Below are positions 24,613 to 33,049 of a DNA stretch of 34,117 bases, in pieces. The translations under genes and the position numbers were made by a program. Position 1 is the first letter of the stretch. Each line of letters opens with the position of its first letter. The DNA comes from Candidatus Cacconaster equifaecalis (GTDB lineage Bacteria; Bacteroidota; Bacteroidia; Bacteroidales; UBA932): contig JAGHVE010000098.1 of the NCBI GenBank assembly GCA_018064445.1, forward strand, positions 1 to 34,117. Direction: 5' to 3'. Under the pieces are notes generated by a model. The model was not told where the DNA came from. It did not search any database and worked only from the letters and a program-made list of their open reading frames with translations.

Positions 24613-24659
24613 AAGTTTGCGAAATACGCGAGTCACTCGCGTATTGCGCAAACTTTTCA
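24610..24659 (+). repeat. Island palindrome, copy 1 (GNAT/jetD convergent junction)
   Basis: Left arm TTTGCGAAATACGCGAG (24616-24632), centre TCA, right arm CTCGCGTATTGCGCAAA (24636-24652); one mismatch. Flanks TGAAAG and CTTTTCA complete a 50-base element. The outer TGA and TCA are the stop codons of the two convergent genes. It probably folds as a bidirectional terminator, with an A run before and a T run after the stem on each strand. Confidence 0.92.
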
Positions 24660-29717: not shown

Positions 29718-30914
29718 TTATTGCGGAAAAATCAGTGGGTATTCAATGTCCTGATCATTGGCTGTCATTTCTGTAATTTGAAGTTCGGGCAAAAACTGTG
29801 AGGCGACCTGGCAGAAAAGTACCAGACGGTCCTCCCGTTCGAGAGTCTTATGGCAATTGTAATGCTGCACGAAAGCATACAGGTCCTCCCCCGAAGCCGC
29901 AAAGGCATTCTTCAGTTCCAACGTGCTCACCATATCAAGGATTTCCGTGTCCTGATCCAAATAATCCAGACCGATCGGATCAGCCTTGCGGCTGCGGGCC
30001 ATTGTTCCGGTCTTCATTTTAAGAGCGAGTGCCTTGATAGCCGCCAGCCCATCATCGGAGTTGCGAAGCATATCCAGCGAGAGTTTGAGAGTATATTTCG
30101 GTCTGTTCTCCATCCACACGGGATTGATGGAATTAAGCACCGGCAGCACGTCGGTCTGACTTTCCAACACCATCTGATCTTTCAGATACTTGATCTTACG
30201 GAGCTTTTTGAGCAGTCGGTCCTGATACTCGATAAGGTTCAGATACTCAATGATCTGCCGGTCGAGTTCCAAAATGTTGTGATACGCATCCTTCAACTGC
30301 AGGCGGACATCCTGCACTGTAGCGCGCAGGCCCACATCCATAGCCACCGCAAAAAAGCCCTGCTGTCTGTTGTCCAGATAATCCTCCGTCTGCAGGATCA
30401 GCTCGGCAATACTATGGCGCTGAGTGTCGAGCTTCTCCAGTTTAGCTTTCTTTATCAGGTAGTTAGGCTCATTCTTATAGGTATTGTCGATGTTGCGTTT
30501 GAGATCGATGACGTTACGCAGAGTAGTGAGGGCAATATTGCGCAGAATCTTTCTCACCTGCTTCAGATACTCGAACTTCCTCTGTTCCGAATTCTCCATC
30601 ATATAATAATTGATGGCCGCATCCAAAGCCTCGATGCTCTCCCTTACGCTCGCAATGCTGATCTGCTCATTGACCTGCAGCACTTCCTCGAAAAAATGCA
30701 TATAAACATCCTCCAGTTCCAGGAAATCTCCGCTGTCGTGAATCACTCCGCGGTCTATCAGAAACTGCAGCCTCTCCTGCCGGTATTCCACCAGCGCCCG
30801 TGCCACGTCATAGTGCAGATTCCCCTCCCGCCTCCTATGGAACATTTCCTTGAGAAGCGCCTTCTCCCTGCCCATCATCTTCAGCAGTTCGTCTATATTA
30901 TTGAATGCGTTCAT
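29718..30914 (-). CDS. jetA: Wadjet JetA/MksF-like kleisin
   Basis: 398 residues, predicted kleisin linking JetC heads and JetB. The N-terminal about 80 residues fit a winged-helix domain (HYDVARALVEYRQERLQFLIDRG, FLELEDVYMHFFEEVL), the middle is helical (YYMMENSEQRKFEYLKQVRKIL, TTLRNVIDLKRNIDNTYKNE), and the C-terminal part (from about 330) may be a second winged helix (EDLYAFVQHYN, FLPELQITEM). It is first in the operon jetA-jetB-jetC-jetD. The start ATG 30914 follows a leader of about 245 bases holding a structured RNA and a palindrome. The annotation is by context and general shape; similarity to MukF is weak by eye. Confidence 0.72.
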   Translation of the reverse strand: MNAFNNIDELLKMMGREKALLKEMFHRRREGNLHYDVARALVEYRQERLQFLIDRGVIHDSGDFLELEDVYMHFFEEVLQVNEQISIASVRESIEALDAAINYYMMENSEQRKFEYLKQVRKILRNIALTTLRNVIDLKRNIDNTYKNEPNYLIKKAKLEKLDTQRHSIAELILQTEDYLDNRQQGFFAVAMDVGLRATVQDVRLQLKDAYHNILELDRQIIEYLNLIEYQDRLLKKLRKIKYLKDQMVLESQTDVLPVLNSINPVWMENRPKYTLKLSLDMLRNSDDGLAAIKALALKMKTGTMARSRKADPIGLDYLDQDTEILDMVSTLELKNAFAASGEDLYAFVQHYNCHKTLEREDRLVLFCQVASQFLPELQITEMTANDQDIEYPLIFPQ

Positions 30915-30945
30915 ATCATGTGCTGTGAGTGTTTATCCGCCGATG

Positions 30946-30980
30946 TTGCGCAATACGCGAGTCACTCGCGTTTTGCGCAA
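30946..30980 (+). repeat. Island palindrome, copy 3 (jetA leader)
   Basis: Left arm TTGCGCAATACGCGAG (30946-30961), centre TCA, right arm CTCGCGTTTTGCGCAA (30965-30980), with one arm mismatch. It lies in the jetA 5' leader, 13 bases after the last hairpin of leader RNA copy A and 31 bases before ATG 30914. Confidence 0.92.
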
Positions 30981-30993
30981 ACAATGCAACGGC

Positions 30994-31172
30994 CGGGTTC
31001 CATGGAGGAAACCGATGCCTGAGATGAATATTCAGGGGAGTATCTGCGCTGAAAGAAGCCAGGCTCGCAGATACTCCCCCGTCGAATTTGTATGACATGG
31101 TTAATATCTGCAGCCAAGACGTTTTCAGCTCATGACATATGAGACAGAAGTGTCTTGCTGGTTGCAAATATA
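30994..31172 (-). ncRNA. Structured leader RNA, copy A (upstream of jetA), with its -7 box
   Basis: Read leftward: -7 box TATATTTG (31172-31165), a hairpin AGAC-6-GTCT in a CAGCAAGAC context (31159-31141), a 14-bp perfect stem CGCAGATACTCCCC/GGGGAGTATCTGCG with a 17-base loop (31079-31035), a CCTGA...TCAGG hairpin, and a hairpin CGGTTTCC...GGAACCCG (31014-30994). Transcription would begin near 31160. Every element, and the 93-base distance from the -7 box to the long stem, recurs in copy B on the other strand. Whether it is a cis leader of jetA or a separate small RNA is unknown; no Rfam family is recognised by eye. Confidence 0.62.
31165..31172 (-). promoter_or_regulatory. -7 box of the jet operon
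   Basis: Read leftward, TATATTTG matches TAnnTTTG. A TTG at 31195-31193 about 20 bases upstream may be the -33 element. It is the only good promoter in the jetA upstream region and would produce a leader of about 245 bases. Confidence 0.6.
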
Positions 31173-31225
31173 TGATTTCTTTTTCTTAAGAACAATACCG
31201 GAGTTGAGGCAGAACAAAAAGTTTT

Positions 31226-31257
31226 GGCCGACCACAATTCCGGCTATTTGGTCAGCC
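31226..31257. other. Hairpin/dyad between the divergent promoters
   Basis: GGCCGACCA (31226-31234) and TGGTCAGCC (31249-31257) pair at eight of nine positions around a 14-base loop. It sits in the 129-base spacer between the two -7 boxes, where a shared repressor or activator could bind. The rest of the spacer shows no gene and is A/T-tract rich. Confidence 0.4.
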
Positions 31258-31301
31258 CTTCATTTTTCAACAATGGACTTTTATCATATGAAATAAATAC
31301 A

Positions 31302-31309
31302 TATATTTG
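31302..31309 (+). promoter_or_regulatory. -7 box of the RAYT gene
   Basis: TATATTTG matches TAnnTTTG, followed by the same downstream context as the jet promoter. Transcription near 31314 gives a leader of about 190 bases. The -33 region reads TTTT rather than TTTG. Confidence 0.6.
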
Positions 31310-31484
31310 CCTGCAGCAAGACGCATCTGTCTTAAGTCTATTAGGCTTAATGGTATTATGTCTGCGGACAACCGCTTATGAACAAAGAAGTTAGCGGGGA
31401 ATATCTGCAGAAAAGGCCATTAAGCGCAGATATTCCCCTGAAAATATATTTCAGGCCCCCGGTTCGTTTTCATAAACGTACCGG
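31302..31484 (+). ncRNA. Structured leader RNA, copy B (upstream of the RAYT gene), with its -7 box
   Basis: In order: -7 box TATATTTG (31302-31309), hairpin AAGAC-GCATCT-GTCTT (31318-31333), a TTAAG/CTTAA hairpin, a 13-bp stem GGGGAATATCTGC/GCAGATATTCCCC (31396-31408 with 31426-31438), hairpin CCTGAAA-ATATA-TTTCAGG (31437-31455, sharing two bases), and CCGGTTCGTTT-TCAT-AAACGTACCGG (31459-31484, one mismatch). Compared with copy A, one stem position is A-T here and G-C there, so pairing is conserved while sequence changes. The long stem begins 94 bases after the -7 box start (93 in copy A). Function unknown. Confidence 0.62.
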
Positions 31485-31505
31485 ATACTATTATCGTGTT
31501 ATCCC

Positions 31506-32450
31506 ATGAAACAATTCGCTGAAAAAATTCTTGCGCAATACGCGAGTGACTCGCGTCCGCGCAAACATCTGTACCTGAGGGGCAATCACCAGCAGGACAT
31601 GTTCCACGACAAAGTGGACAAGATCAACGCCTGGAACCGCCTATGGCTCAGCGCAAAAGCCACTGGAGTAGAAATCTTTTCCGTTGCCATTCTCGACAAT
31701 CATATGCATTTGGCTATCCAACTCCGGTATGATGGGCAGGAGACTGACTTCATGCACCATTTCAGGCTCAGCATCACGCAGTATTACAATCGGCGTTATG
31801 CGCTAAAAGGAATGCTTGGCACGCGAAAATTCGGGCGCGCGACACTTTACGATGCAGAAGATTTGAAGGATTGCGTCTGCTACCACATTCGCAACGTGCT
31901 GCACCATGGCATTTCCAGCAATTATCTGGATTACCCGTTCAGCACTGCACGATACGCTTTCGGGCTGATTTCCAAAGAACAGCGGGGCCACTATACAAGC
32001 AAGACGCTTCCTGAAAACCTTGCCCACGCCTATTTACCTGTCCGAGAGAAACTTCCTGAAGGATGGACAATAACATCCGAAGGTCTGATCGTTCCCCCGG
32101 AACGTGTCTTCCGATCAGATAGGGTAGAAGAACTGTTTGGCGGTTCACGCGAAAAATATCTCGGAGCGCTCACACATCGCACCTCGCGCGAAACCAACGA
32201 TGAAGATGAACCTTGCGCAAAACGCGAGTCACTCGCGTCTGCGCAAACTCTCGACGAAACGGTGGTGGAATTCGTGAAAAAGAAGTCACCGGTTCCCCTC
32301 CCTGCAATGAGTTTTATGAAGAAAATAGAGATTTTGGGTTATGTACGCAAGGAATTTCCTAAAGTCGGCTATAGATCTCTAGAGAGAATCTTCGGCATCC
32401 CGGCAAGCACAATACGCTATTACATCAAAAAGTTGCACGGACGCGAGTAA
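31506..32450 (+). CDS. REP-associated tyrosine transposase (RAYT), HUH family
   Basis: 314 residues. The IS200-like Y1 core starts at about residue 20: KHLYLRGNHQQDMF (family RGN motif), then DNHMHLAIQ with the metal-binding HUH pair His66/His68, a helix with LSITQYYNRRYALKGMLG, and VCYHIRNVLHHGI, where Tyr126 is the likely nucleophile. The C-terminal (about 265-312) is a helix-turn-helix (FPKVGYRSLERIFGIPASTIRYYIKKL). RAYTs nick and move palindromic REP elements. Three copies of the island palindrome are inside the gene: codons 9-20, the linker 236-247, and the stop, where TAA is the palindrome centre. The ATG at 31506 is forced because the core begins right after the first palindrome. Confidence 0.85.
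   Translation: MKQFAEKILAQYASDSRPRKHLYLRGNHQQDMFHDKVDKINAWNRLWLSAKATGVEIFSVAILDNHMHLAIQLRYDGQETDFMHHFRLSITQYYNRRYALKGMLGTRKFGRATLYDAEDLKDCVCYHIRNVLHHGISSNYLDYPFSTARYAFGLISKEQRGHYTSKTLPENLAHAYLPVREKLPEGWTITSEGLIVPPERVFRSDRVEELFGGSREKYLGALTHRTSRETNDEDEPCAKRESLASAQTLDETVVEFVKKKSPVPLPAMSFMKKIEILGYVRKEFPKVGYRSLERIFGIPASTIRYYIKKLHGRE
31531..31565 (+). repeat. Island palindrome, copy 4 (RAYT N-terminus)
   Basis: Left arm TTGCGCAATACGCGAG (31531-31546), centre TGA, degenerate right arm CTCGCGTCCGCGCAA. It is translated in frame as LAQYASDSRPRK, immediately before the transposase core. Confidence 0.85.
32213..32247 (+). repeat. Island palindrome, copy 5 (RAYT linker)
   Basis: Left arm TTGCGCAAAACGCGAG (32213-32228), centre TCA, right arm CTCGCGTCTGCGCAAA with changes. 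It is read in frame as CAKRESLASAQ, in the linker between the catalytic core and the helix-turn-helix. Confidence 0.85.
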
Positions 32451-32466
32451 CTCGCGTGTGTGCAAA
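32433..32466 (+). repeat. Island palindrome, copy 6 (RAYT stop codon)
   Basis: Left arm TTGCACGGACGCGAG (32433-32447), centre TAA (32448-32450), right arm CTCGCGTGTGTGCAAA. This is the most diverged copy. Its centre TAA, where other copies have TGA or TCA, is the stop codon of the transposase gene. Confidence 0.82.
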
Positions 32467-33003: not shown

Positions 33004-33049
33004 AAGTTTGCGCAATACGCGAGTGACTCGCGTATTGCGCAAACTTTCA
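33001..33049 (+). repeat. Island palindrome, copy 7 (hypothetical/recQ junction)
   Basis: The most complete copy: 23-bp perfect arms (33001-33023 and 33027-33049) around the centre TGA. Core TTGCGCAATACGCGAG as elsewhere; outer ends TGAAAG and CTTTCA. The outer TGA ends the hypothetical gene and the outer TCA is the stop of the convergent recQ. A strong bidirectional terminator is likely. Confidence 0.97.

Follow-up and report, generated by a model that had tools for sequence, protein, structure and literature searches.

An inverted pair of structured leaders between a RAYT-like transposase gene and a Wadjet-like operon

The window, by which is meant the whole stretch of 34,117 nucleotides of Candidatus Cacconaster equifaecalis DNA that was analysed, carries a RAYT-like transposase gene (ATG at 31506, plus strand) and, on the other strand, a Wadjet-like operon with a gene in the jetA position (ATG at 30914). 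Between the two genes lie two leaders arranged as a divergent inverted pair, with leader A (minus strand) preceding jetA and leader B (plus strand) preceding the RAYT-like gene.

29718..30914, minus strand: jetA, assigned by operon position only
30946..30980, no strand assigned: REP-like palindrome at the outer end of leader A
31506..32450, plus strand: RAYT-like (Y1, HuH) transposase gene
31531..31564, no strand assigned: REP-like palindrome at leader B's outer end, within the RAYT frame

The transposase gene matches NCBIfam NF047646 (REP_Tyr_transpos) with an E-value of 4.6e-8 at 33.1 of 80 bits, which is below the cut-off, and Pfam Y1_Tnp with an E-value of 9.8e-5 at 22.9 bits against a cut-off of 23. 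The match to TnpArep in the PDB (4er8) is weak (E 0.075), and the AlphaFold model of the protein is too poor to use (pLDDT 44.6). The gene is flanked by palindromes that are repeated in the genome. The gene in the jetA position has no family match in Pfam, NCBIfam or PADLOC and no credible match in the PDB. Its operon neighbours match MksE/JetB (E 5e-41), DUF3584/JetC (E 1.1e-70) and, at E 9e-4, a JetD-like protein, and it is these JetB-, JetC- and JetD-like genes behind leader A that liken the operon to Wadjet / MksBEFG (JetABCD).

Seven near-identical REP-like palindromes (core ACGCGAGTNACTCGCG) occur in the window, at 24626, 29684, 30955, 31540, 32222, 32441 and 33017, crowding around the jet genes and the RAYT gene; the one at 33017 is about 55 bases long by eye. 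Allowing up to three mismatches there are 22 sites genome-wide, and the palindrome is also found around two relatives of the RAYT gene in other genomes, L075 and L076, which are introduced below. Two palindromes (31531-31564 and 32215-32245) lie within the RAYT frame, near its start and in its C-terminal part, and leave it unbroken, and another (32436-32464) overlaps its end. The first of these is kept in L075 (3036) and L076 (3036); the last is kept in L075 (3937), and L076 ends before it.

Each leader comprises a promoter box, a 5' hairpin and a perfect long stem of 13 base pairs. The original prediction described two divergent copies with TATATTTG, CAGCAAGAC, a long stem and CCTGA/TCAGG, and all of these are indeed present in inverted orientation, the copies being 62% identical across the leader (112 of 180 aligned columns). 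Their similarity score of 138 was reached by none of 300 letter shuffles (mean 52.4, maximum 85). The following features were placed on the two leaders with the help of an alignment of four sequences, namely A, B and the leaders of L075 and L076.

31302..31309, plus strand: leader B promoter -7 box TATATTTG, from the sequence and the alignment of four
31314..31332, plus strand: leader B 5' hairpin CAGCAAGAC...GTCT, 4 pairs, 17 of 19 columns invariant in the four sequences
31345..31354, plus strand: leader B strand a, partner of a'
31361..31368, plus strand: leader B strand c, rival of b' for strand b
31378..31509, plus strand: leader B open frame of 43 amino acids, its TGA overlapping the RAYT ATG
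31396..31408, plus strand: leader B strand b, the 5' arm of the long stem and hub strand, 12 of 13 columns invariant
31416..31425, plus strand: leader B strand a', within the long-stem loop
31426..31438, plus strand: leader B strand b', the 3' arm of the long stem, 9 of 13 columns invariant
31437..31455, plus strand: leader B CCTGAAA/TTTCAGG hairpin, 9 of 17 columns invariant
31459..31484, plus strand: leader B last hairpin (CCGGT.CGTTT....AAACG.ACCGG), 10 of 26 columns invariant
31165..31172, minus strand: leader A promoter -7 box TATATTTG
31142..31160, minus strand: leader A 5' hairpin CAGCAAGAC...GTCT
31123..31129, minus strand: leader A strand a (GCTGAAA)
31106..31112, minus strand: leader A strand c
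30916..31098, minus strand: leader A open frame of 60 amino acids, its TGA ending one base before the jetA ATG
31067..31079, minus strand: leader A strand b, the 5' arm of the long stem
31048..31054, minus strand: leader A strand a' (TTTCAGC)
31035..31047, minus strand: leader A strand b', the 3' arm of the long stem
30994..31036, minus strand: leader A CCTGA/TCAGG complementarity and last hairpin (CGG.TTCC.....GGAA.CCG), the latter in the computed fold

The -7 box TATATTTG is present in both leaders and reads TAYATTTG in all four aligned sequences; we take it to fit the Bacteroidota-type -7 consensus TAnnTTTG, a promoter type that the sigma-70 scan does not cover. From the start of the box, CAGCAAGAC lies at 12 bases in both leaders and the long stem begins at 93 (A) and 94 (B) bases, exactly as predicted, with CCTGA/TCAGG further on. 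The shared hairpins of the original prediction stood in part. The long stem has its 13 perfect pairs in both copies, but CCTGA/TCAGG shares bases with it and is absent from A's lowest-energy fold; a last hairpin is present in both copies, but the predicted pairing with different bases does not hold pair for pair, since the two do not align in that way. The outer five pairs of B's last hairpin are kept in L075 and L076 and are different in A. Competing pairing, an open frame in each leader and REP palindromes at the outer ends had gone unmentioned.

Between the divergent promoters, at 31226-31257, lies an inverted repeat, GGCCGACCA-N14-TGGTCAGCC, a possible operator. The pattern, which was written from this same site, has one match in the window against 0.01 expected.

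The distribution of the leader indicates which of the two genes it belongs to. In the whole window Rfam release 15 finds only a tRNA (1497-1571), and a relaxed search (E up to 10) of 30920-31520 returns two microRNA models only, far below cut-off. A known RNA family was rejected because none, 6S RNA included, matches at its gathering score, in agreement with the expectation that no described family would account for the leaders. A covariance model of the leader core built from two sequences (R1) matched 14 of 299 family genomes (E ≤ 1), 3 of 40 genus genomes (E ≤ 1) and 11 of 393 order genomes (E ≤ 0.05), the own genome included each time and all others at no more than 26 bits, the only strong matches in these samples being the window's two copies. 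A four-sequence model (R2) matched 2 of 398 family genomes (E ≤ 0.01), the other one with 30.7 bits, and 1 of 40 genus genomes (E ≤ 0.1). The 299- and 398-genome family samples overlap, and stricter filters were used for the R1 family, R1 order and R2 family searches. The two weak matches outside the window's genome that were viewed as alignments (L077 and L078) have many broken pairs. A widespread RNA family was rejected on the lack of a strong match in the family, genus or order samples.

Searches with plain sequence agree with this narrow range. A DNA search of 149 family genomes returned the own genome and 10 others with single matches of 20-35 bases, and the exact stem pattern occurs nowhere in genome contigs (one genome per species) or viral contigs. 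The 5' pattern with up to two mismatches is found in 103 of 149 genomes, a reversed control being frequent too; without mismatch it hits the window's two sites only, among the matches listed. Neither the leader DNA in phages and plasmids nor the RAYT protein in plasmids and viral contigs was found.

A scan for the RAYT protein with six peptide patterns in one genome per species, which detects close relatives only, gave 13 stretches and 2 relatives. These are L075, 84% identical, from a Candidatus Cryptobacteroides fimicaballi MAG, and L076, 80% identical, from a horse-faeces Bacteroidales MAG. In both, the leader stands directly upstream of the RAYT gene (R1 81.8 bits in L075, 69.0 bits in L076). 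The gene neighbourhoods differ from that of the window, and no jet gene was recognised among open reading frames named by eye, where L075 has a GNAT-like gene upstream and L076 has a gene resembling peroxiredoxin, which lies on the opposite strand. Strong R2 copies number one each in the L075 and L076 genomes and two in the window's genome, both at the locus; other R2 matches in these three genomes reach no more than 28 bits, two of them being the opposite strand of stems at the locus. Copies outside the locus were thus found at two RAYT relatives, but nowhere as strong matches in the family, genus and order samples.

More distant RAYT-like proteins of the bacterial family (26-32% identical) occur in 9 of 119 genomes, own included. 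By eye, the leader was not seen in 13 loci of such proteins, some of which have inverted REP-like pairs upstream. Two of them, L045 and L052, have long inverted REP-like pairs (around GATTGAATCTA) directly upstream of the RAYT-like gene, an arrangement, again judged by eye, that differs from the leader of the window.

Relatives of JetA (40-49% identical) are present in 13 of 249 genomes, own included. The upstream DNA of 11 of the 12 others, inspected by eye and with a scan for the -7 box and stem, shows nothing like the leader; one relative (L064) has no upstream DNA and was left out, and L065 and L066 hold two parts of a single gene. A Wadjet-specific leader was rejected because no similar upstream region is found in these 11 relatives, and the attachment to Wadjet operons proposed in the original prediction is not supported. 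Since the leader stands before both RAYT relatives and was not seen before JetA in those 11, it accompanies the RAYT gene, which makes A the additional copy; the leader seems to belong to the RAYT gene rather than to the defence system. As a separate observation by eye, the JetA upstream regions of L058 and L059 are very similar but seem to differ by an insertion of about 90 bases. It contains an inverted repeat of 13 bp (TACTGCACATTTG) and is perhaps a small palindromic element that can move.

Conservation within the leader is concentrated in its structural segments. Among the four sequences, invariant columns make up 7/8 of the -7 box, 17/19 of the 5' hairpin, 12/13 of strand b, 6/9 of c, 6/8 of a', 9/13 of b' and 4/8 of a. 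The two 3' hairpins are less conserved (9/17 and 10/26), the spacers have 3/12, 7/27 (3 of the 7 being an ATG) and 1/11, and the overall average is 93/186. Pooling the 5' hairpin, a, c, b, a' and b' gives 54/70 invariant columns against 8/47 in the spacers without the ATG (Fisher P 1e-10), a value that is flattering because the segments were partly picked on the same sequences and the 3' hairpins were left out. The claim that elements are kept and the sequence between them has diverged is nonetheless borne out by these counts. The four pairs of the 5' hairpin never vary and therefore speak neither for nor against pairing.

Stability was compared with shuffled sequences. As single sequences, A and B fold more stably than any of 200 dinucleotide shuffles (z -5.24 and -4.91), L076 is moderate (z -2.28) and L075 is no better than its shuffles (z -0.93). 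The consensus fold of all four sequences, with the long stem, has z -4.3 against column shuffles, none of 300 being as stable; that of the three RAYT leaders, with a:a' and c:b, has z -3.3, with 1 of 300 as stable.

Covariation is not significant for either fold. The observed value is reached by 236 of 500 shuffles for the long-stem fold and by 103 of 500 for the nested fold (a:a' and c:b), in a test whose power is low because there are only four sequences. Further, double changes are more numerous when the partners are offset by -2 columns (3 or 2) than in the true pairing (1). The significant covariation that had been set as a test was not reached with these four sequences. The compensatory pair offered as proof is G-C in A and A-U in B but unpaired in L075 (G.A) and L076 (A.C); broken in half of the sequences, it is unusable for that purpose. 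Regardless, the contrast between elements and spacers, the consensus stability and the recurrence at two other RAYT genes uphold the view that this is a selected leader and not a chance repeat. The leaders are genuine, conserved, structured and narrowly found, and the leader seems to be that of the RAYT-like gene.

The structure admits two competing folds. Strand b, with its ATCTGC core, is complementary both to the downstream b' and to the upstream c, and with c:b formed an outer helix a:a' encloses it. Helix a:a' pairs GCTTAATG with CATTAAGC in B and L076, loses one pair in L075 (ACTTAATG) and in A pairs GCTGAAA with TTTCAGC, with one double change from U-A to G-C. Across the four sequences 93.5% of cells are paired for a:a', 96.4% for c:b and 94.2% for b:b'. 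The computed energy gap between the folds is 3.1 (B), 4.0 (L075), 3.4 (L076) and 4.7 (A) kcal/mol, below 5 in all four. The preferred fold varies, being nested in B and L076 and the long hairpin in A and L075; the consensus fold is nested for the three RAYT leaders and the long hairpin for all four sequences. The long stem that had been predicted as the fold therefore holds for A but not for B, whose lowest-energy fold is the nested alternative and whose long-stem pairs have a probability of at most 0.15. These computed folds suggest that the leader is possibly bistable. The two-fold anatomy would fit a bistable leader and also a loosely constrained one, which four sequences cannot separate.

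A conserved ATG lies between c and b, and the frame that it starts is open in all four sequences. It is 43 codons long in B, L075 and L076, where its TGA overlaps the ATG of RAYT, and 60 codons long in leader A (31098-30916), where its TGA ends one base ahead of the ATG of jetA. Under simulated neutral change starting from one of the three RAYT leaders, the other two stay open with a probability of 0.13-0.19.

We lean, with modest confidence, towards a structured 5' leader that restrains expression of the RAYT-like transposase through two folds and of which a second copy stands before the Wadjet-like operon. The promoter would start a transcript whose leader may fold in two ways, strand b pairing either with the downstream b' as a long hairpin or with the upstream c, around which a:a' would then close. 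As the open frame spans the helices up to the RAYT start, a ribosome translating from the ATG between c and b to the RAYT start codon would melt them. The leader would most likely keep transposase expression low, as for IS200 tnpA and ISPpu9 tnp, and open on translation of the upstream frame or on a shift of fold. Leader A may be an older or faster-evolving inverted copy that serves as promoter and leader of the Wadjet-like operon.

Two insertion sequences offer precedents for such restraint. In the sections of PMC12594629 drawn on here, the structured 5' part of IS200 tnpA mRNA is processed to a regulatory RNA, and several mechanisms block tnpA translation. The likeness lies in a structured 5' part of a Y1-family transposase mRNA and in a leader put to another host use; it is one of description and not of sequence, as there is no Rfam match. 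Further, as far as those sections describe IS200, the present case differs: its leaders are two diverging paralogues, of which one precedes a defence operon, and they contain an internal open frame and strands that could fold in competing ways. For ISPpu9, the relevant passages of PMC8450116 describe a folded 5'-UTR that restrains the transposase, Asr9/Ssr9 and the use of an antisense RNA. Here the likeness is a long 5'-UTR whose folding restrains a transposase gene, along with the insertion of ISPpu9 in REP sequences. It is nevertheless a different insertion sequence, likened by description, and the antisense RNA is a feature of ISPpu9 in those passages.

The RAYT literature, as represented by passages of PMC3733652 and PMC6006769, describes REPs or terminal inverted repeats around or within the genes, and those passages describe no leader of a RAYT mRNA. 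The present locus resembles these REPtrons and TIRtrons in that REP palindromes surround a Y1 transposase gene and also occur within it. In contrast to them, the leader pair is no repeat family, since the window's genome has two strong copies, both at this locus, and the genomes of L075 and L076 have one apiece, and the in-frame REPs lie outside the HuH-Y interval (motifs by eye), unlike most that the same passages describe for subclass 2.4. A structured leader for RAYT genes was not found in the open-access literature, among the matches listed, nor was any paper there on Wadjet and RAYT together, both of which are weak evidence of absence.

Alternatively, the leaders could be small RNA genes: their structured 5' portion would be released, or would stop short of the gene, and would act in trans in the manner of IS200 5'tnpA. 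This would suit a 5' portion that is compact and structured, spans about 175 nt and has a promoter box to itself, as would the IS200 5'tnpA precedent in the sections of PMC12594629 drawn on, and the computed pairing of A's strand b with the b' of B is as strong as that of B's own b (-22.6 kcal/mol each). However, in the reverse combination B's strand b pairs less strongly with the b' of A (-18.7 kcal/mol) than A's own b does (-24.9 kcal/mol), a scan of 30900-31600 gave no terminator-like site, the start of the RAYT gene is immediately preceded by the leader both in the window and in the two relatives, and the three genomes have no further strong copies. We regard this reading as unlikely.

A second alternative treats the inverted pair mainly as DNA, a relic of an old duplication of the RAYT 5' end (promoter, leader and REP), possibly through RAYT activity, that was kept for its promoters and in which RNA folding is secondary. 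The stretch 30946-31564 is indeed a single imperfect palindrome, outer REPs included, with inverted-repeat arms of 46 bases (78% complementary) and 42 bases (79%) and REP-like outer-end palindromes at 96%, and the passages of PMC3733652 used here describe RAYT genes with REPs or terminal inverted repeats at their flanks. Further, what follows the REP in A shows a weak resemblance to the beginning of the RAYT gene in the window (P 0.017), L075 (P 0.085) and L076 (P 0.036). The stretch from the last hairpin to the REP, however, has no A-B similarity (P 0.57), and REPs are repeated across the genome anyway. The internal elements, beyond the promoter, recur in single-copy leaders elsewhere, which with the stability of the consensus fold speaks against a pair that matters mainly as DNA, and we give that explanation a low probability. 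As for descent, A is 62-66% identical to B, L075 and L076, which are mutually 76-85% identical; being similarly distant from all three, A split off earlier or evolves faster. Similarity upstream of the promoters is mixed (A-L075 P 0.002, A-B P 0.052, A-L076 P 0.42). The simplest history, though unproven, would be that the 5' end of the RAYT gene was duplicated in inverted orientation and that the second copy ended up in front of jetA.

A bolder version of the favoured reading, in which a switchable RAYT leader has been domesticated as a Wadjet control and cross-talk between A and B through b:b' ties transposase and defence expression together, strikes us as quite doubtful. Finally, that the conserved stretch is a short protein gene (43-60 amino acids) translationally coupled to the downstream gene is very improbable: its conserved ATG, frame open in all four sequences and end at the next gene's start would suit such a gene, but changes by codon position (11/6/11, 15/10/13 and 11/8/11) lack the third-position excess of RAYT (25/16/62, window against L075) and give no coding signature, the substitution pattern being unlike that of a conserved protein, and the A peptide is mostly unlike the B peptide. 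If translated, the open frame would matter through coupling rather than through its peptide.

As for a leader that restrains the RAYT-like transposase, its retention with the gene in three genomes would point to RNA-level control that a single-copy RAYT brings with it. If such a leader has indeed been reused ahead of a defence operon, that would be a concrete instance of immunity recruiting a transposon regulatory sequence.
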